Virus record (IMG/VR): IMGVR_UViG_3300024895_000017
Location: 1-25,661 of that record
From: a virus
Reading direction: 5' to 3' (one strand)
Length of the DNA: 25,661 nucleotides
Part shown: positions 3,016 to 25,353 of the stretch, one piece after another
Layout: each line of letters opens with the position of its first letter
How positions within the stretch are numbered: position 1 is the stretch's first letter
Made by a program: the position numbers and the translations under genes
The notes under the pieces: generated by a model
Seen by the model: only the letters and a program-made list of their open reading frames with translations
Databases searched by the model: none
Told to the model about the DNA's origin: nothing

Positions 3016-4488
3016 ATGAATGTACTAGACAAAATCATCGGCATTTTCTCACCTAAAGCCGCTTTTGAACGCAGCCGTTATCGTGCCGTGCAAGCCGCTT
3101 ATGAAGCCGCTAAGCCAGATAGAACCCGCACAGGTAAAATTGACAATTCCAGTGCAGACCGACTTACGCAAAAAGCGGGTAATGGCTTACACGGTTTTAG
3201 CCGCCATTTAGAACAAAACAATGATTTTTGTTACTCGATTTTACTGACAAAAACCAATAACGTCATTGGTGCAAAAGGCATTAACGTTGAACCCATGCCA
3301 TTACGCACAAACGGCACTATTCACAGTGAGTTTAAAAAAATCCTGCTGACTGGCTGGGAAAAGTGGAGCAATAATCCAGAGGTGACAAAATCATTAAGCT
3401 ATGCGGATTGTGAGCGGTTAGCTTACTGGACAAAACAGCGCGATGGAGAATGCTTTGTACAGTTTATAGTCGGCGAACTGCCAACGCTACGGCATGGCTG
3501 GAAAATTCCGTTTTCAATTGAGCTTATTGAGCGCGATTACCTGCCTGTCTGGAATAGTAGCTTAACCAGCCGTGTACAGCAAAGCATCGAGCGTAACGAA
3601 TGGGGGCAGGCGATTAACTACCATGTGCTAAAAGACCATCCTGAAGGAATCAGTTATCGCAACAGCTTGGATTATCGCATTATTCCAGCCAGTCGCATGT
3701 TGCATTTGAAACGCGTAACACGTTTTAAACAGTCACGCGGCGTGCCATTATTCGCACAAATCATTAAGTCCTTAGAATGGATCGGTAGTTATTTACGAAG
3801 TGAAGCCATTGCCGCGTTAACAGCATCCATGTTTGCCGTCGTTATCAAAAAAGGCAATCCAGATGCTTATGATAGCGAGACCGACAGCAATGGCAAGCGC
3901 ATGATGGGACTAGACTCAGGTACTGTTATTGACGATTTATTACCTGGTGAATCACTCGATGTAGTCAGCTCAAACCGTCCCAATTCAGCCAGCACGCCCT
4001 TTGTCGATTTAGTAACTAAGTTTATGTGCGGTGCGGTTGGCGTGAATTGGTCGAATGTCACTAACAATTATGATGGCACTTATATCAGCAAACGCGCTGA
4101 GCGGATTGACAGCCAAAAGAATTATGAAGCGGATGCCCACGAATTCATTAAGGAAATGACTAAGCCCATTTATGAAAAGCATATTGAAATGGGTATCTTG
4201 GCAGGCGTTTACAAAATACCGAAAGATTTGGATTTAGACACGCTTTTCGATGCGGGTTATTTTTCACCGGCCATGCCAGAACTTGACCCAAACAAAGACA
4301 GCAACGCCAGCGAAACCTATATTGCCAACGGTATAAAATCCACACCGCAAATTATTCGCGAAAAAGGCGGTAATCCAGATCAGGTGCTGGAACAGGAAGC
4401 CGAATGGCAGGCCAAGGTTAAGAAAAAACAAATGTGGTTTACCACCTTTCAAAAAGAACCGACAGATAATACAAACCAAGCCGCGTAA
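3016..4488 (+). CDS. Phage portal protein, lambda family
   Basis: This 490-residue protein matches the lambda portal family in size, position and motifs. Portals form a dodecameric ring at one capsid vertex through which DNA enters and leaves and on which terminase docks. Recognisable segments include an N-terminal RSRYRAVQAAYEAA stretch, a region around NNVIGAKGINV (about 81-92), a WTKQRDGECF segment (about 138-147) and an IELIERDYLP segment. No canonical ribosome site lies in the 10-base gap after the gpW-like gene, so reinitiation is likely. The stop codon lies in the loop of a terminator-like hairpin. Confidence 0.9.
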   Translation: MNVLDKIIGIFSPKAAFERSRYRAVQAAYEAAKPDRTRTGKIDNSSADRLTQKAGNGLHGFSRHLEQNNDFCYSILLTKTNNVIGAKGINVEPMPLRTNGTIHSEFKKILLTGWEKWSNNPEVTKSLSYADCERLAYWTKQRDGECFVQFIVGELPTLRHGWKIPFSIELIERDYLPVWNSSLTSRVQQSIERNEWGQAINYHVLKDHPEGISYRNSLDYRIIPASRMLHLKRVTRFKQSRGVPLFAQIIKSLEWIGSYLRSEAIAALTASMFAVVIKKGNPDAYDSETDSNGKRMMGLDSGTVIDDLLPGESLDVVSSNRPNSASTPFVDLVTKFMCGAVGVNWSNVTNNYDGTYISKRAERIDSQKNYEADAHEFIKEMTKPIYEKHIEMGILAGVYKIPKDLDLDTLFDAGYFSPAMPELDPNKDSNASETYIANGIKSTPQIIREKGGNPDQVLEQEAEWQAKVKKKQMWFTTFQKEPTDNTNQAA

Positions 4489-4500
4489 AGCGGTTTTTTT
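4478..4500 (+). terminator. Terminator-like hairpin after the portal gene
   Basis: AAGCCGC (4478-4484) pairs with GCGGTTT (4490-4496) with one G-T wobble, around a 5-base loop holding the portal stop codon. Seven T residues follow the stem (4494-4500), as in rho-independent terminators. It lies only 18 bases before the capsid gene, with no room for a new promoter, so it can only be partial or antiterminated if the capsid is made from this transcript. The short stem argues for an attenuator or an mRNA-stabilising end. Confidence 0.55.
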
Positions 4501-4517: not shown

Positions 4518-6515
4518 ATGAGTATTAAACATACCATCAAAGCCTTAGCCAATAACCCGACGGTTACTGAATTATTGATTTACGGCGATATTGGCGAAGA
4601 TTTTTGGGCAGAAGAATCAAACGATGCAAAAAGCATTGTCGCTAAGCTCGATGCAATCAGCACGCCAGACATTCATATTCGCATTAATAGCAATGGTGGC
4701 AGTGTTGTTGATGCAATTGCTATTTATAACGCAGCGAAACGTCATGCAGCAACCATCACCGTATTCATTGATGGTGTAGCATTTTCAGCCGCGTCTTTAA
4801 TAGCAATGGCTGGTGATACCGTCATTATGGCCGCCAATGCGTTATTTATGATTCATGCACCATCAACAATTAGCAGAGGAAATGCTGAGCAATTCCGCAT
4901 TGATGCGGATACCCTTGATAAATATGCGGACGCAATGGCGCATAGTTACATGGAAAAAACAGGAAAATCCAAAGATGAGATTGATGCGTTATTAAAAGAT
5001 GGTTTAGATCATTACTTTACCGCCGAAGAAGCCAAGGCAGAAGGCTTTATTGATGCGATCAATGAAGCAGCCAGCATTCAAATTGCCGCCATCGCCACCC
5101 GTTTTAAACCACCGCAAGCGTGGCTTGCACAAAATCAACTACAAGGAAATACTCCCATGCCCACAGAACAAAAACCTAATTCAGAAACCACACCCACACC
5201 ACAAGCTGTGATTGATGACTCAATCACAGCGAAAGCTAAAGAAACCGAACGACAAACCAGCATTAAAGCGATTTATGCGCATGTGCCTGTTGACCGCACT
5301 GATATTCATGCGCTATTACCGACCATGTTAATTGATGCCAGCATCACCGAAGAAAAAGCCCGTGAACAAATTCTGGCGAAAATCGGCGAAAACCAGCAAC
5401 CAGTAGGTAAATCACATCATATTCAAATGGGTGCTGATGAAACCGATACTTTTAAAATGCTGGTTACTGCGTCTTTATCAGCCCGTGCCGGTATTGAAAA
5501 AGATAGCGAAAAAAGTCGTATTTTACGCGGTTCAAGTTTATTAATGCTGGCTGAAAAGTCGTTGAATATCCAGGGCATTAATACGCACTCTATGAGCAAA
5601 CAGCAAATGGTATCCGCCGCTTTTACCCATTCATCCAGTGACTTTGGTAATTTGTTAGCCAATGTTGCCGAAAAAGCAATGATGAAAGGCTATGATGAAG
5701 CACAGGAAACTTTCCAACTGTGGACAACAGCTGGATCAGCAGGGGATTTTAAGCCAGTTAGCCGCGTTGATTTGAATACTTTTCCATCGTTGGATAATGT
5801 GAGCGAAGGTGCTGAATATAAATATGGAACGATCGGGGATCGTGGGGAAACTGTCCAGCTTGCTACTTATGGCAAATTATTCAGTATTACCCGCGAAGCA
5901 ATCATCAACGATGATTTAAACGCATTCACTAAAATCCCGATGAAAATGGGCAGAGCGGCCATTCGTACTATTGGCGATTTGGTTTATGCGGTGTTAACAG
6001 CAAATGCAGCAATGGCTGACGGTGTGGCATTATTCCATAGCACTCATAAAAACCTATTAACATCGGCTGTAATGTCAACTGCATCAATCGATGCAATGGC
6101 AGTGGCAATGGGTTTACAAACTGATGGCGGTGCTAATGCCAAAGGTTTAAACATTCCATTGTCTTACATTATTTGTCCGTTAGCGTTGCGCGGTTTGGCT
6201 AACACCATCCGCACCTCACAGTATCGTGTCGGTGATGCGGATACAAAAATGGCTAATACAGCCCCCAATGTTGTACAAAACACTTTTGAAGTCATTGCCG
6301 ATGCCAGACTGGATGCGGCAAGCTCGACTAATTGGTACGGTGCGGCAAATCCAGGCCAATTCGATACGGTCGAAGTCACTTATTTAGACGGCATTCAAAC
6401 CCCCTACCTTGAACAGCAAGATGGTTTTACTACCGATGGGGCAGTTTTCAAAGTGCGTATGGATGCCGGTGTCAAGGCGTTGGACTTCAGAACGTTAGCT
6501 AAAAACCCTAATTAA
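4518..6515 (+). CDS. ClpP-like prohead protease / major capsid protein fusion
   Basis: This 665-residue polypeptide combines two jobs usually encoded separately. Residues 15-185 are a ClpP-like serine protease: the nucleophile is Ser90 in GVAFSAAS, with His113 in MIHAP and Asp179 in EGFIDA, matching ClpP's Ser-His-Asp order. Such enzymes cleave scaffold and capsid during prohead maturation. Residues 200-340 are polar and helical, fitting a scaffold or delta domain. About 340-665 is the shell-forming capsid protein, with typical features such as FGNLLANVAEKAM and ITREAIINDDL. Fused protease-capsid proteins are known in related phages. Release of the mature capsid would require cleavage in the linker. 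An internal start at 5157 may make a protease-free form. Confidence 0.9.
   Translation: MSIKHTIKALANNPTVTELLIYGDIGEDFWAEESNDAKSIVAKLDAISTPDIHIRINSNGGSVVDAIAIYNAAKRHAATITVFIDGVAFSAASLIAMAGDTVIMAANALFMIHAPSTISRGNAEQFRIDADTLDKYADAMAHSYMEKTGKSKDEIDALLKDGLDHYFTAEEAKAEGFIDAINEAASIQIAAIATRFKPPQAWLAQNQLQGNTPMPTEQKPNSETTPTPQAVIDDSITAKAKETERQTSIKAIYAHVPVDRTDIHALLPTMLIDASITEEKAREQILAKIGENQQPVGKSHHIQMGADETDTFKMLVTASLSARAGIEKDSEKSRILRGSSLLMLAEKSLNIQGINTHSMSKQQMVSAAFTHSSSDFGNLLANVAEKAMMKGYDEAQETFQLWTTAGSAGDFKPVSRVDLNTFPSLDNVSEGAEYKYGTIGDRGETVQLATYGKLFSITREAIINDDLNAFTKIPMKMGRAAIRTIGDLVYAVLTANAAMADGVALFHSTHKNLLTSAVMSTASIDAMAVAMGLQTDGGANAKGLNIPLSYIICPLALRGLANTIRTSQYRVGDADTKMANTAPNVVQNTFEVIADARLDAASSTNWYGAANPGQFDTVEVTYLDGIQTPYLEQQDGFTTDGAVFKVRMDAGVKALDFRTLAKNPN
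5143..5159 (+). promoter_or_regulatory. Internal ribosome site and in-frame start inside the protease-capsid gene
   Basis: AAGGAAA at 5143-5149 lies seven bases before an in-frame ATG at 5157 (Met214), at the junction between the protease domain and the linker. Starting here would make a 452-residue protein containing scaffold and capsid without protease. Lambda does something similar: the Nu3 scaffold starts inside gene C. The site is better than the one before the full-length start (CAGTGAGA), so the short form could be the more abundant. Use of the site is inferred. Confidence 0.55.
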
Positions 6516-6558: not shown

Positions 6559-7236
6559 ATGGCTAAAAATTATATTCAAGACGGCGAAGTCCTATCATGG
6601 CTGAATAGTACCGGCGCGGCAATTGCCAGCGAAGTACCCGTTGCCTTTGGCATTTGGTGTATGGCAATCGCACTGGTTGATATTGCCATTTCTGCGTCAG
6701 GTGCAGTGGCAGTCGAAGGCGTTTGGCAATTAACCAAATACGGCGCGGTATCAGGTGCGGCAATCGCACAAGGCGCGGGTGTTTGGTGGGATGCCACAAA
6801 CGGCTATGTTGTCAATGCACCGGCAAAAAATACTTATTTTTTAGGTTTTGCCAGCGAAGCCGCTTTAACAGCGGCAACTACCGTCAACGTCATACTGGAA
6901 GAATTTTCAGCAGAAGGGACACGGGTATTAACACTCGCGGCAACAGGTACAGAGACGCTTGGTGTCGGTGATTTTGTAGGTGGTGACCTGGTAGTTTTTG
7001 TTCCCAATACAGCGGCAAAAACTATTAATTTACCTCCTGTCGCAAATATTCCAATCAGCAGAAAGCTCACCGTGCGGAAAACCAGTGCGGATGTAGCGGC
7101 TATCACATTAGACCCAAACGCCTCAGAGCTTATCGCAGGCGGTGCTACTCATGCCGCATTGGATGCCAATAATGATTGGGCATGTTTTATTAATACCGGC
7201 ACAGCCTGGGCATTAGTTAATTCAACGATCGCCTAA
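6559..7236 (+). CDS. DUF2190-like capsid decoration protein with extra C-terminal domain
   Basis: The first 110 or so residues of this 225-residue protein resemble DUF2190 proteins, glycine- and alanine-rich proteins encoded just after the capsid gene that act as cement or decoration on the shell. The N-terminal MAKNYIQDGEVL, the central GAVAVEGVWQL and the GVWWDATNGYVV segment are typical. Residues 113-225 go beyond the usual DUF2190 length and look like a second beta-sandwich (VVFVPNTAAKTINLPP, LTVRKTSADVAAITLDP, WACFINTGTAWAL), a pattern seen in surface domains of phage fibres. I infer a cement protein displaying an extra exposed domain. A modest AGAGATAA ribosome site precedes the start. 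Confidence 0.72.
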   Translation: MAKNYIQDGEVLSWLNSTGAAIASEVPVAFGIWCMAIALVDIAISASGAVAVEGVWQLTKYGAVSGAAIAQGAGVWWDATNGYVVNAPAKNTYFLGFASEAALTAATTVNVILEEFSAEGTRVLTLAATGTETLGVGDFVGGDLVVFVPNTAAKTINLPPVANIPISRKLTVRKTSADVAAITLDPNASELIAGGATHAALDANNDWACFINTGTAWALVNSTIA

Positions 7237-9600: not shown

Positions 9601-11553
9601 ATGTTTCCCGTTGATAACAAGCGGCGATTTCAACCTAAAGCTTATGTAGAGACTATAAGACAAGGCCTTGGAAAAGACCTAATTTTAGCAGTCAACCTGC
9701 AAAATGGTATTGTTCGTAATGCGGTAAATGGTGAGGTCCCAACATTAACAGGTATAGCGGCAACACCTTCATCTTCATGCGGTTTAGAAGGTAAGTTATT
9801 TGATACTGCCAGTTATAATTTTGTTAGAACAAAGTGTCCAGCGTCTACTGATGACTTCACTATTCTGGTTATCCAGAATTATAAAAGTAATGCAGCCAAT
9901 AACCAGTCACCAGTATCGTTTAATAATAAATTCTTTCTTTATGCACCACTATCAACCGCTGGGCAAATATATTTTTATAGTGCTGGCACAGAGGGTTCAT
10001 TATCTGGAAATGGAGCAATAACGGCAGGTAAAAGCCAGACATTAGTAATCAAAAAGGAAGTATCGACACTTGCATCATATGTAAATGGCGTAGCACAAGC
10101 ACCGACAGGCACATTTGGCGGTATATTCAGTGCCGGAACAACGCGTCTCGGTATTGGTTATGACACAACTGAATATTGTAAGAATGAATTAGATTTAGTC
10201 TTAATCTGGAAACGAGCATTAACTGTTTTAGAAATAAAGTCTATCTCAGACAATCCATGGCAGATTTTTAAATCCTATCGTGCTTTTATTCCTTCGCTGC
10301 CTGCCAGCGGTCCTATTAGTGTTAATGGTTCAGTATTAAGCGTTCAAAGTCAATTATCTAGTGCTGAAGCCACCGTTTCATCTATTACCGTTAATGGTGT
10401 AGCGAAGTCAGAGCAAAGTCAATTAGCAAAAGCCGTTAGTATAGTTTCCGCATTAACTGTTAATAGTGTCGGTTATTCTGCACAGTTACAAAATGCCAGC
10501 GCAACAGCCACCATAAGTAATTTAACGGTAAATGGCATTGCCGAAAGCAGTCAGTATCAAAACGCCAAAGCAATTAGCACGGTCTACTCTATACAGGTTT
10601 TTGGTGTAGGCAAAAGTTATCAGCAACAAATAGTAGGCGCACCGAGTTCAGTCGCATTCGCGTCAGTCAATGGCATAGGACAAAGCCAACAGGCGCAAAG
10701 CACCAGCGCAATCGGAAATATTGACTCTATTGCAGTTAATGGCACAGCAAAATCTGAACAGACACAAAATGCCAGTGCCATCGGTTCGACAACTGCTGTA
10801 GGGAGCAACGGCATTGGTGGTAGTTTACAAGCCCAAAGTGCTTATGCTACAGGCTTGGTTAATGTTAATGGCGTTGGTAGCAGCTTACAGCAACAAAGCA
10901 CACAAGCCGTTCCTAGCGTTGCCTCATTAACCATCAATGGTATTGGGAAATCAGAGCAAACACAAGGCTTAAGCGCGATAGTCTCTATTATCTTTGCAAA
11001 TGTAAACGGCGTTGGTGAGGCTAAACAAAATCAATTAGCCTATGCAGTAGCATCAAATAGTTTTGCCGCTGTTAATGGCATAGCTCATTCGACACAGGCA
11101 CAATCAGCTTATGCAGCAGGGTCAATAGCATTATCAGGTGTTGTCGGTGATTCATGCCAGACACAGAGTGCAGGCGCAGTCGGTTCTGTTTCATCCATTA
11201 CTGTTAATGCGATAGGAAAATCTGAACAGTCACAAAACAGTACAGCAATAGGGTTATCATCGGGAATTATTATCAATGCCCTCGGCATTACGGATCAATT
11301 CCAAAATGCCTATGCAGTCGGTACTGTAACAACCGAACAAACCCCTGTAATGGGTGGCAGTTCACAAGCACAAAATGTTTATGCCGCTGCCTTGGTTAAT
11401 ATCAATGCTATCGGTGGCAGCTTACAGCAACAAAGCACAAAAATTGTTATCGGTTCACAGATACAAGATGCAACACACCCAAGATATTACGCCATTCAAG
11501 CAGAGCAAAGGGGATACATTGTGAAAGCAGAAAACAGAGGCTATGTTATATGA
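9601..11553 (+). CDS. LamG-like fibre protein with tandem 23-residue repeats
   Basis: This 650-residue protein has three parts. Residues about 20-230 look like a concanavalin/LamG-type beta-sandwich: FTILVIQNYKS strands, LASYVNGVAQAPTG, TTRLGIGYD, and a closing LDLVLIWKRALTVLEIKSI typical of these folds. Residues 241-623 are about 17 copies of a degenerate repeat, mostly 23 residues, of the form VNGIGKSxQxQNAxAIGSVxSIT. The last 25 residues (PRYYAIQAEQRGYIVKAENR and onward) form a short distinct end. The layout suggests a sugar-binding head joined to a beta-rich fibrous shaft, with the C-terminus as attachment point. The next gene is a probable fibre adaptor. No clear ribosome site is visible, so reinitiation is likely. 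Confidence 0.7.
   Translation: MFPVDNKRRFQPKAYVETIRQGLGKDLILAVNLQNGIVRNAVNGEVPTLTGIAATPSSSCGLEGKLFDTASYNFVRTKCPASTDDFTILVIQNYKSNAANNQSPVSFNNKFFLYAPLSTAGQIYFYSAGTEGSLSGNGAITAGKSQTLVIKKEVSTLASYVNGVAQAPTGTFGGIFSAGTTRLGIGYDTTEYCKNELDLVLIWKRALTVLEIKSISDNPWQIFKSYRAFIPSLPASGPISVNGSVLSVQSQLSSAEATVSSITVNGVAKSEQSQLAKAVSIVSALTVNSVGYSAQLQNASATATISNLTVNGIAESSQYQNAKAISTVYSIQVFGVGKSYQQQIVGAPSSVAFASVNGIGQSQQAQSTSAIGNIDSIAVNGTAKSEQTQNASAIGSTTAVGSNGIGGSLQAQSAYATGLVNVNGVGSSLQQQSTQAVPSVASLTINGIGKSEQTQGLSAIVSIIFANVNGVGEAKQNQLAYAVASNSFAAVNGIAHSTQAQSAYAAGSIALSGVVGDSCQTQSAGAVGSVSSITVNAIGKSEQSQNSTAIGLSSGIIINALGITDQFQNAYAVGTVTTEQTPVMGGSSQAQNVYAAALVNINAIGGSLQQQSTKIVIGSQIQDATHPRYYAIQAEQRGYIVKAENRGYVI
10321..11469 (+). 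repeat. Tandem 69-bp coding repeats of the fibre shaft
   Basis: Repeat units begin at residues 241, 264, 287, 310, 333, 356, 379, 402, 422, 445, 468, 491, 511, 535, 558, 578 and 601 of the fibre protein. Most are exactly 23 residues; three are 20 and one is 24. Conserved positions are V-N-G at the start, a serine near position 7, glutamines at 9 and 11, and A-x-A or A-I-G near 13-17. DNA copies are diverged rather than identical, so this is an old repeat maintained by structure. Confidence 0.8.
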
Positions 11554-22085: not shown

Positions 22086-22277
22086 ATGACTGAAACACCC
22101 GCCCATTACACCATTGAAAAACCCTTACATGACATGAGCATTGAAAAGCTCTGTCATTTCCGTTGTCATCACTGTCAAGGTTGGTGGACAATTGCCGATT
22201 GGCAGCCTGTTGAATCGGTTTATTGCCCGCATTGCGGTACTAACGCTAAAGTAAAAGAGATACCCGCCGATGTCTAA
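22086..22277 (+). CDS. Small zinc-ribbon protein
   Basis: This 63-residue protein carries a clear four-cysteine zinc ribbon: CHHC at 27-30 and CPHCG beginning at 47, with TIADWQPVESVY between. Rubredoxin-type knuckles of this kind usually stabilise small nucleic-acid- or protein-binding domains. The ribosome site is poor, but the gene overlaps the start of the long fibre gene by eight bases. I know similar short zinc-ribbon proteins in phage accessory regions without assigned function. Confidence 0.6.
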   Translation: MTETPAHYTIEKPLHDMSIEKLCHFRCHHCQGWWTIADWQPVESVYCPHCGTNAKVKEIPADV

Positions 22278-25200
22278 AGCCCGCATAGTTGAAAGTCTTG
22301 GAAGTGGTAAATACAAGGTCAAGCTGTTGCTTGATGTGGAAGCGATTAAGGAATTAATTGAAGAGCTTGATGTAGAGATAGATAACTCAAATTATTTAAT
22401 AAATTTCACGCTTGAAAATAAGGTAACTAAGGCTAAAGCCGATTTAGACCATCACGCCAATGACACTAGGGGGCCACAGTATGATCTTGATCCCGTAACC
22501 ATTTCCAGAATGTGGTGGTTACGCCATATATTGGATAACGCATTAAAAGCAGTGGTTAATGAAAAAATAAGGCGCGAATCTATGCGCAACGAAAAAGGCA
22601 AGCTGGAAGAAGTATTAGCCAACGCTGAAACGCTTAAAACAGTGTGGTGTGCGGATTTTACCGAAGATTTAGCTGTGGGCAGTGAAGTGGGCGTTATCGA
22701 CTGGTATCAGTATCGCGGTAATGCAACCGCCAATAAACCTGTAATCATGCCCGCCTATATTGAAGGCACAGAAAGTGCTTATAAAGGAATTCGTGATGGC
22801 AGGCTGGCACCTCAACGGATGTTATCGACTAACAGTTGGTGGTATGCGATGATGATTTGCGCGGGCTTGGAACGCTACAATCCGCGTTATCGTAAAGCCA
22901 CTATCACCGTGATTCATGACAATGGCTTGTGTGATGTCACAGTCGATAAAAACTACACGCAATTAATTGAAGCAGAAGCCAAGAAACTCACTACTAAAGA
23001 GCTATTTCTTAAAAATGTGCCGGTGCGTTATCTGACTTGTGATTGTCTGGCATTTGAAGTCAATGACCGCGTGGTACTGGAATATCCGCGTAAAGATGTT
23101 CACGCCTATCTGGTAGCAGGATTTAAAGCCAAACGTGAAGACCTGATAAAAAAATCGACTAAAACGCAGGCAGAAATCACCGCGTTGGAAGGTAAAATCA
23201 CGGCCAAGAATGCGGAAATCGATGTATTAAATCAGCAAGCCGAAACACAAACCACCATCATTAAAAATGAAGCCGATGCAGCGGGCATTACGGCTTTGCA
23301 AACAGACATTGACGCGCTGGATCAACAGGAATCCACGTTAAAAGACACGATAAAAACGGCCACATCCGATAAAGAAAGTGCTGAAGCCGCTGTGGCGCAA
23401 TTAATTGTCGCGCGCGATGAAAAACAGGCGCAAATCGACACGCTGAATGATGATCTGGATCAACTGATTGCCAATAATGCACCGCCAGAAGATATAGCCG
23501 CTAAAGAATTACAGATTACGTTAGCCATTAATGAGCTGATCGCGATAAATCAGGATTTACAGGACGCGTCACAGCTTCTTGCTGATGCTACGGCCACGCT
23601 GAATGACTCAGAAATCAATCTCCGCAGCGTGCAAAAAGAAAAAAGCGACAAACAGGCGTTATTAATCCCGTTATTATCACAAACCACGCTGGCAAAAGAT
23701 GAATTACGCTACATTCTGGAAAAAATCGTTTATGAAACGCAAAAGCTGATTAAATTGCAGGATGAAAAATTCGGCATTGAAACCAGGGTAACAGGGATAG
23801 AAGGCGAAATTATCAGGCTTCAGGAACTGGAAAATAAAGAGCAAGCCAAATCAGCTAAATTAAAAAAGTTCACGGATACCAGGCCAAAAGAAATTACTGT
23901 GGTGGGCTTTGAATCAAATCCTCGTCGCTGTGATCCACCGATATTTATCACTTATACTAATAAATTGAGCAGTGGATTAAATACAATTATTGATAATCCG
24001 CCTTGGTGCTGGAATAAATCAGAAAGGATTGTTTATAAAAAAGGTATTGTAAATCCTATTGTAAAAAATGATTTTTTTGCGGGGAAAGATTACTGGATAA
24101 GCAAAGGCGGTATGGCTATAAGCTGGTATAAAGATACGGTTTACTGGAAAGGAGATTATTTTGTTTTAACAGCAAATAAAATAATCTGCTGTGCTTATAA
24201 AAATAAAACCCTTATAACAGTAGAATTCGATTCAGTTAACCATTATTCAATCAATACTTACTTGCATGAAGAAAGTAACTTTACTTTTTCATTAAGCAGT
24301 TCACGGATATTTTTTACCGGTGCTGGAACTAATATTAATAATTATGACACCATAGTACAGGCTGCATTTTTAACGGATGCAACCACATTGGTCGCTATAA
24401 TGTTTTTACAAAACTCATGTAAAAGCGTGTTTAATGTATTCAGATTCGCCGCTGATTATCAAACTGAAAGTAAAGAGGAGGCGTTATCTGGAACAGGGGA
24501 TTTTTCAGCCAGTTTTTATAATAATGGCACAGAGTTTTTAAACCCGACTGTGATAACAAACACTTATATTGCTTCACAAACAAATAGCCCGACAGTATTT
24601 TATATTGATAAAGACATTGTTTATGTAGTCGCAGAGCAAAAGAAATCTGAATCGTATATAAATTATACAGCCAGCTCTGATTATTTAATAGAAAACAGAA
24701 ATGACATTATAAAAGAAAATAATTCTGTAAAATTATATGAATATAAAGATAGCGTTCTAACAAACATAGTGATGTCATTGTTTGTTACATCAAGTGCAAA
24801 TGAAACAGCAAGCAGTGGTGCTGGATACTCTCATAATAAAACAGCAAATTATTCAACAAGAGAATTAGTATTTTTTGATAAAACTAAAAATCTAAGTATC
24901 TATTTTGATGAAAATACAGTTACTAATAATAATTATTCTGTTGAATTAGATAAGTATATTATTAATATAGCAGGAACATCAAAGTTAACTGTTGAATTTA
25001 AAAACAATAAAACAGTTGTTTTTTTAAGAAACATATTAATAAATGTTATACAGCAAGATACTTTTATAATGCTCCCCAATACAATCGGTAATTCTTCTGG
25101 ATCAGGTCCGTCTAATATCGATATGTATAAAAAATATGATTATGCGTTTGATGGAAAATTATTTATTTTGGCTTTTTATCCTACCGGTGATGATAATGAT

Positions 25201-25353
25201 AATGGGAAAACAATTATTATAGACATTACAAAAACGCAATTAAGTTATAGCATTCTTGATTATCGGGTTGATATTGATTTTGTTTTTGATGAAAATCACG
25301 TTAAGGTAGCCAGATTTTTCCCATTATCAGTAACCCAACTGGTAGAAAAATAG
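22270..25353 (+). CDS. Large tail protein with central coiled coil and variable C-terminus
   Basis: This 1027-residue protein ends the tail operon. Residues 1-285 are a conserved-looking N-terminal domain (MSKARIVESLGSGKYKVKLL; DPVTISRMWWLRHILDNALK; NPRYRKATITVIHDNGLCDV), probably the virion-attachment part. Residues about 287-533 are an almost uninterrupted coiled coil rich in Gln, Asp, Lys and Ala. Residues 540-1027 are beta-rich and heavy in Asn, Lys, Tyr and Ile, encoded by visibly more AT-rich DNA from about 23940 onward. The layout suggests a tail-tip fibre with a stalk and a separately evolving receptor-binding end. I find no enzyme motif. A GAGAT ribosome site lies upstream. Confidence 0.7.
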   Translation: MSKARIVESLGSGKYKVKLLLDVEAIKELIEELDVEIDNSNYLINFTLENKVTKAKADLDHHANDTRGPQYDLDPVTISRMWWLRHILDNALKAVVNEKIRRESMRNEKGKLEEVLANAETLKTVWCADFTEDLAVGSEVGVIDWYQYRGNATANKPVIMPAYIEGTESAYKGIRDGRLAPQRMLSTNSWWYAMMICAGLERYNPRYRKATITVIHDNGLCDVTVDKNYTQLIEAEAKKLTTKELFLKNVPVRYLTCDCLAFEVNDRVVLEYPRKDVHAYLVAGFKAKREDLIKKSTKTQAEITALEGKITAKNAEIDVLNQQAETQTTIIKNEADAAGITALQTDIDALDQQESTLKDTIKTATSDKESAEAAVAQLIVARDEKQAQIDTLNDDLDQLIANNAPPEDIAAKELQITLAINELIAINQDLQDASQLLADATATLNDSEINLRSVQKEKSDKQALLIPLLSQTTLAKDELRYILEKIVYETQKLIKLQDEKFGIETRVTGIEGEIIRLQELENKEQAKSAKLKKFTDTRPKEITVVGFESNPRRCDPPIFITYTNKLSSGLNTIIDNPPWCWNKSERIVYKKGIVNPIVKNDFFAGKDYWISKGGMAISWYKDTVYWKGDYFVLTANKIICCAYKNKTLITVEFDSVNHYSINTYLHEESNFTFSLSSSRIFFTGAGTNINNYDTIVQAAFLTDATTLVAIMFLQNSCKSVFNVFRFAADYQTESKEEALSGTGDFSASFYNNGTEFLNPTVITNTYIASQTNSPTVFYIDKDIVYVVAEQKKSESYINYTASSDYLIENRNDIIKENNSVKLYEYKDSVLTNIVMSLFVTSSANETASSGAGYSHNKTANYSTRELVFFDKTKNLSIYFDENTVTNNNYSVELDKYIINIAGTSKLTVEFKNNKTVVFLRNILINVIQQDTFIMLPNTIGNSSGSGPSNIDMYKKYDYAFDGKLFILAFYPTGDDNDNGKTIIIDITKTQLSYSILDYRVDIDFVFDENHVKVARFFPLSVTQLVEK

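Follow-up and report, generated by a model that had tools for sequence, protein, structure and literature searches.

In phages lambda (C/Nu3) and Mu (I/Z) the protease gene contains an in-frame internal start, from which a protease-free product sharing the C-terminal part of the protease is made. In both systems the nested frame yields scaffold only, with the capsid protein supplied by a separate gene. HK97 and D3 encode protease and capsid in separate genes (PMC10275583, PMC12749128), and an HK97 prohead is built from 415 capsid copies and holds about 60 of the protease, the protease number in D3 being about 90 (PMC12749128). Maturation requires few proteases and many shell subunits, and a one-gene fusion of the two seems to impose a 1:1 ratio. 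Such fusions, as the first-pass annotation of the locus described here had stated, are already known: the three-part fusion has been published (PMC8508860, PMC6536676), with protease, scaffold and capsid in one gene described for MD8 (PMC8508860). Present annotation (NCBIfam 'exception' families, PHROG 'head maturation protease') lists one product for these genes. A text search of the MD8 paper (PMC8508860) returned no mention of an internal start or start codon, and no description of a nested start in protease-capsid fusions was found in the openly licensed PMC literature searched.

The DNA analyzed (the window) is a 25,661-base stretch of an IMG/VR virus record. Its gene content points to the half of a tailed-phage genome that specifies head and tail, since it encodes both terminase subunits (small and large), the portal, the fusion protein, a head decoration protein and, further on, a tape-measure protein. 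No PHROG matches were obtained for the large ORFs at 9601-11553 (650 aa) and 22270-25353 (1027 aa) of the window. The fusion locus contains the following features:

3016..4488, + strand: portal gene (phrog_21), directly 5' of the fusion gene
4518..6515, + strand: fusion gene for a ClpP-like prohead protease, scaffold and major capsid protein (NF045540, PF00574, PF25209)
4542..5063, + strand: protease domain, residues 9-182, with Ser90, His113 and Asp179 (AF2 pLDDT mostly >90)
5143-5149, + strand: internal Shine-Dalgarno (SD) sequence AAGGAAA, from the sequence; an SD is kept at the junction across homologues
5145..5222, + strand: disordered junction linker, residues 210-235 (AF2 model, pLDDT <50), containing the nested start
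5157-5159, + strand: nested in-frame start codon ATG (Met214), from the sequence; the aligned position is conserved
5157..5570, + strand: putative scaffold region, helical, residues about 214-351 (AF2 helices; function predicted)
5157..6515, + strand: predicted nested in-frame product, a scaffold-capsid of 452 aa and 48.7 kDa
5598..6512, + strand: HK97-fold shell domain, residues about 361-665 (PF25209, AF2, Foldseek)
6559..7236, + strand: head decoration gene (phrog_122), directly 3' of the fusion gene

The fusion ORF starts with ATG and is open for 665 codons, giving a full-length product of 665 aa (71.5 kDa). The first-pass annotation had read it as a ClpP-like protease joined to the major capsid protein, and the profile searches agreed: NF045540 (scaf_prot_MCP1) matched residues 17-664 with 656.9 bits against a curated cut-off of 475, and the Pfam domains CLP_protease (PF00574) and Phage_capsid_4 (PF25209) were found at residues 35-183 and 368-663, respectively. 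An AF2 model of the fusion, built with 41 homologues from which rows of annotated phage records were excluded, reached a mean pLDDT of 86.7, and its protease part matched ClpP folds in the PDB (E about 1e-12). The proposed catalytic residues Ser90 and His113 are kept in all 74 rows of the window's clade with a residue there, and the Asp179 column holds D in 65 of 75 rows, with T, N or H among some of the others. The nested part modelled alone showed an N-terminal helix (residues 15-41) and more helices within its first approximately 140 residues, followed by the shell fold, and in Foldseek this model matched encapsulins and HK97-type capsids with probability 1.00.

The closest described relatives, the NF045540 fusions (PHROG 133; F10, MD8, mEp460, Gifsy-2), have the same domain order as the window gene and match over the full length. 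The NF045541 fusions (scaf_prot_MCP2, e.g. Rhodobacter RcDormio) have a homologous scaffold-capsid part with a nested start likewise at the junction, and differ in carrying Peptidase_S78 instead of Clp ahead of it. The layout of the predicted nested product, a helical N-terminal scaffold followed by the shell fold, is also that of HK97 and D3 (PMC10275583, PMC12749128), the scaffold function being putative here and the region analogous to the HK97 delta domain; unlike the separate protease and capsid genes of HK97 and D3, the window has the single ORF 4518-6515.

A terminator-like hairpin followed by a T run (AAGCCGC GTAAA GCGGTTT TTTT, 4478-4496) overlaps the end of the portal gene and precedes the fusion gene. 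It is a possible attenuator, such patterns being expected by chance about as often as they are observed.

At the domain junction the AAGGAAA sequence is separated by seven bases (5150-5156) from the ATG at 5157, the arrangement noted in the first-pass annotation, and Met214 falls in the disordered linker. The frame opened there reaches PF25209 without a stop. As in the lambda C/Nu3 type, the window gene has an in-frame internal start with its own SD after the protease domain, and the likeness to Nu3 inside lambda C drawn earlier is apt; the difference is that here the nested frame continues into the capsid domain and its product ends in the shell protein. The site had also been called strong. 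This held in relative terms, since Met214 is the best of 39 in-frame ATG, GTG or TTG codons inside the ORF (anti-SD pairing -5.4; runner-up -4.7) and pairs better than the fusion gene's own start at 4518 (-3.6). In absolute terms the site is moderate: a pairing of -5.4 is reached by 5 of the 113 in-frame internal ATGs of the window's genes, and the signal in the window alone is therefore suggestive and not decisive. An internal promoter in place of internal translation was considered and dropped, since a scan for sigma-70-like sites found none on the + strand between 4300 and 6700.

To compare homologues, fusion loci were collected from IMG/VR, one genome contig and phage records, and 91 distinct sequences were aligned; for the window's clade (clade A) 64 representatives with <90% identity to each other were used. 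Two further loci (L002 and L003) have a gene identical in DNA to that of the window and bring no independent evidence. The closest relative whose gene differs (L004, about 65% identical) has the Met, and its SD is a weak GAGAA (-2.7). The linker of this clade is low-complexity and variable in the alignment, except for position 214 and the SD-coding E before it. Residues aligned to Met214 are M in 64, V in 5 and L in 4 of the 75 rows, and the codons are ATG (64), GTG (4) or TTG (4) in 72 of them, the others being GTA, AAC and CAA; one of these three rows (L066) has a Met a few residues off (TKGNQM). The genes with TTG at this position use it for 2-12% of their Leu codons. Upstream of the nested start, A at -11 and G at -10 are found in 88% and 81% of the clade, respectively.

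A start preceded by an SD (dG at most -5.4) was present in the linker of 58 of the 64 representatives, compared to 9.6 expected from shuffling the order of the linker codons (z 17.7). The best linker start was picked for some of the counts in clades A and B, and the unselected test gave z 6.7 and 5.5, respectively; in the window's clade this test covered all linker ATGs and showed stronger SDs than expected from synonymous codon choice. The median dG was -6.9 at linker ATGs and -1.7 at other in-frame ATGs. Members L034, L040, L049 and L075 pair poorly. Per-sequence synonymous shuffling with the best linker start is weak for single genes, because K-E dipeptides readily encode an SD, and it was replaced by pooled and fixed-site tests and by codon-order shuffling. 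The z-scores overstate independence because the representatives share ancestry, and SD pairing is no more than a proxy for initiation rate. With these qualifications, sequence comparison indicates that start and SD are conserved across homologues far beyond chance.

The same feature recurs in other fusions. In the S78-type fusions (NF045541; RcDormio and relatives) an ATG with an upstream SD was found in 29 of 29 representatives (z 5.5), with the SD placed in codon phase 0 in 9 cases, phase 1 in 6 and phase 2 in 14, where it encodes KE, KG, TR, LE, QR and other pairs. The first-pass annotation had proposed aligning homologous fusions at the junction, and both the ribosome site and the Met are kept there in the window's clade and in the S78 type. 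Homologues lacking both would have spoken against a nested start, and the opposite was found: even in the F10/mEp460/Gifsy-2 clade, MD8 belonging to the same subgroup, the start is kept, shifted about 15 residues upstream of the window's position and lying in another motif, [KEQ][ED][FY]xxMP. In this clade AGGA at -14 to -11 is invariant in all 42 Met-bearing representatives, and in 42 of 43 representatives, against 20.8 expected, G is the last base of the codon preceding GA, the strongest bias among 38 comparable K/E/Q columns; no similar bias was seen at other columns preceding a G-initial codon. The only F10-type representative without the nested Met, on Aeromonas caviae plasmid unnamed3, has ATT in its place and AAA as its SD codon. 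In Rahnella aceris plasmid p2 the fusion gene was observed outside a normal head operon, near HEPN-domain and primase-like genes, with no portal annotation adjoining it.

These data bear on the possibility that the gene makes a single product, each capsid precursor bearing a protease in a 1:1 ratio, and that the junction is conserved as a peptide, for instance as a self-cleavage site. Such a site would be expected close to the domain junction, and KE-S/T-(T)-M is a common peptide in the window's clade. However, the peptide varies (KE, QE, EE, QG, RG, KG, TR, LE, QR) while the SD stays, and its occurrence in all three codon phases with varied peptides in the S78 type means that peptide conservation is no explanation there. 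In addition, in 72 of the 75 rows the start residue is encoded by ATG, GTG or TTG, synonymous third positions are constrained, and the starts recur alongside unrelated protease types. A peptide motif or cleavage site as the cause of conservation was rejected on the evidence from SD phase, codons and start codons, and we regard a single product as very unlikely.

Junction starts were also found in other fusions. Lactococcus c2 l5 (locus L300, 9418-10860, 480-aa product) likewise joins protease and capsid and has an SD and ATG inside the gene, ahead of the scaffold region (M131 after AAAGGAG), although its protease and capsid belong to other subfamilies (proheadase_HK97-like, PF06673) and it represents a separate fusion. 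According to the c2 record the mature capsid begins at codon 206, downstream of M131, which fits removal of the scaffold. The Pfam family PF06673 (c2-type capsid) begins exactly at Met131 of l5, as if its members had been annotated from the nested start. The distant c2 relatives GE1 (M137) and Q54 (M144), Stenotrophomonas S1 (M207), Synechococcus MinM1 (M223) and Vibrio and Shewanella phage fusions carry a start at the junction, as does Paracoccus Pben1 with AAAGGG. Three loci (L116-L118) contain another PF25209 fusion, about 800 aa long, and two of them (L117 and L118) have ccGGAGGAG...ATG at the junction; the N-terminal part of L118, the one searched, had no Pfam match.

Relatives with split genes suggest where the nested start comes from. 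FP_Epona (locus L306) has an S78 protease gene (1309-1839) and, 13 nt on, a separate capsid gene with its own AGGAGG. The two genes match NF045541 positions 4-159 and 151-634, respectively, and the nested start of the fusions therefore corresponds to a normal capsid gene start. The internal start would then most simply be the own start of a once free-standing capsid gene, retained when that gene was joined in frame to the upstream protease. In the actinobacteriophage Brevibacterium LuckyBarnes (locus L308, 846-2048) an unfused protease-scaffold gene has a strong nested start (M249 with AAGGAGG) and the capsid gene is separate, an arrangement resembling lambda C/Nu3. The capsid-domain tree split most S78 fusions from most Clp fusions (support 100/96), except that the S78-type S1 and PY223 grouped with the Clp fusions and the Clp-type Paracoccus with the S78 ones. 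Because they form long branches, an exchange of proteases across the junction, though possible, is not proven.

A capsid gene beginning at this point in FP_Epona, together with the weak sites of a few fusions, would also agree with the nested start being a relic that contributes little, the fusion protein being the main product. A relic would be expected to decay, yet SD and start survive large sequence divergence and changes in linker length, and in most members pairing is stronger at the nested site than at the best protease start (54 of 74 in the window's clade and 56 of 78 in the S78 type). We consider a relic very unlikely.

The reading favored by these results is that one gene gives two in-frame proteins, a minor protease-scaffold-capsid of 71.5 kDa and a major scaffold-capsid of 48.7 kDa, which we hold to be very probable. 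From the sequences we infer initiation, ratio, co-assembly and cleavage as follows. Ribosomes starting at 4518 would make the minor 71.5-kDa form, and those starting at ATG 5157 with the SD at 5143-5149 would make the more abundant 48.7-kDa form, a counterpart of the HK97 capsid precursor. Because both end in the same shell domain, long and short forms could co-assemble. A minority of prohead positions would be taken by the long form, which brings the protease in, while most subunits would be protease-free, and after assembly the protease would cut the scaffold and itself off the shell domain. A strict fusion is tied to 1:1. With two starts in the same gene the dose problem would be solved, and the protease would come to lie inside, carried by a capsid subunit.

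Initiation at 5157 could also be real and serve a role other than dosage, such as supplying a minor protease-free subunit at the pentons or around the portal. The ratio of the two products is not readable from sequence, and in 15 of 74 members of the window's clade and 22 of 78 of the S78 type pairing is better at the protease start than at the nested start. On the other hand, the protease of HK97-type proheads is a minor species (about 60 copies against 415, PMC12749128), and a 1:1 fusion without a second product could not reach such a capsid:protease ratio. We therefore regard a non-dosage role as quite unlikely. The earlier proposal of a nested start giving a protease-free scaffold-capsid is supported, with initiation and the role in dosage as its predicted parts; what is new is that the predicted nested product extends into the capsid protein and that this recurs with different proteases.

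These fusions as a class are probably not single-protein genes. Three or more types of protease (Clp/S14, S78 and c2-type proheadase) are involved, in phages of Pseudomonadota and Firmicutes, and the ribosome site kept at the junction would make a protease-free scaffold-capsid, so that two genes would have been joined with two doses kept, and the protease domain would be exchangeable before a conserved scaffold-capsid unit. If this is true, genes labelled 'protease/major capsid fusion' would conceal another capsid precursor, made in larger amounts. Should the nested start be used, the annotation of the most abundant structural protein is about 200 residues too long in many temperate phages that infect E. 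coli, Salmonella, Pseudomonas and environmental bacteria, with consequences for proteomics, structure work and capsid engineering. Use of the nested start would also explain how the protease enters the prohead, riding on a capsid subunit, and would offer a rule, directly open to testing, by which protease and capsid genes can fuse with dosage control retained.
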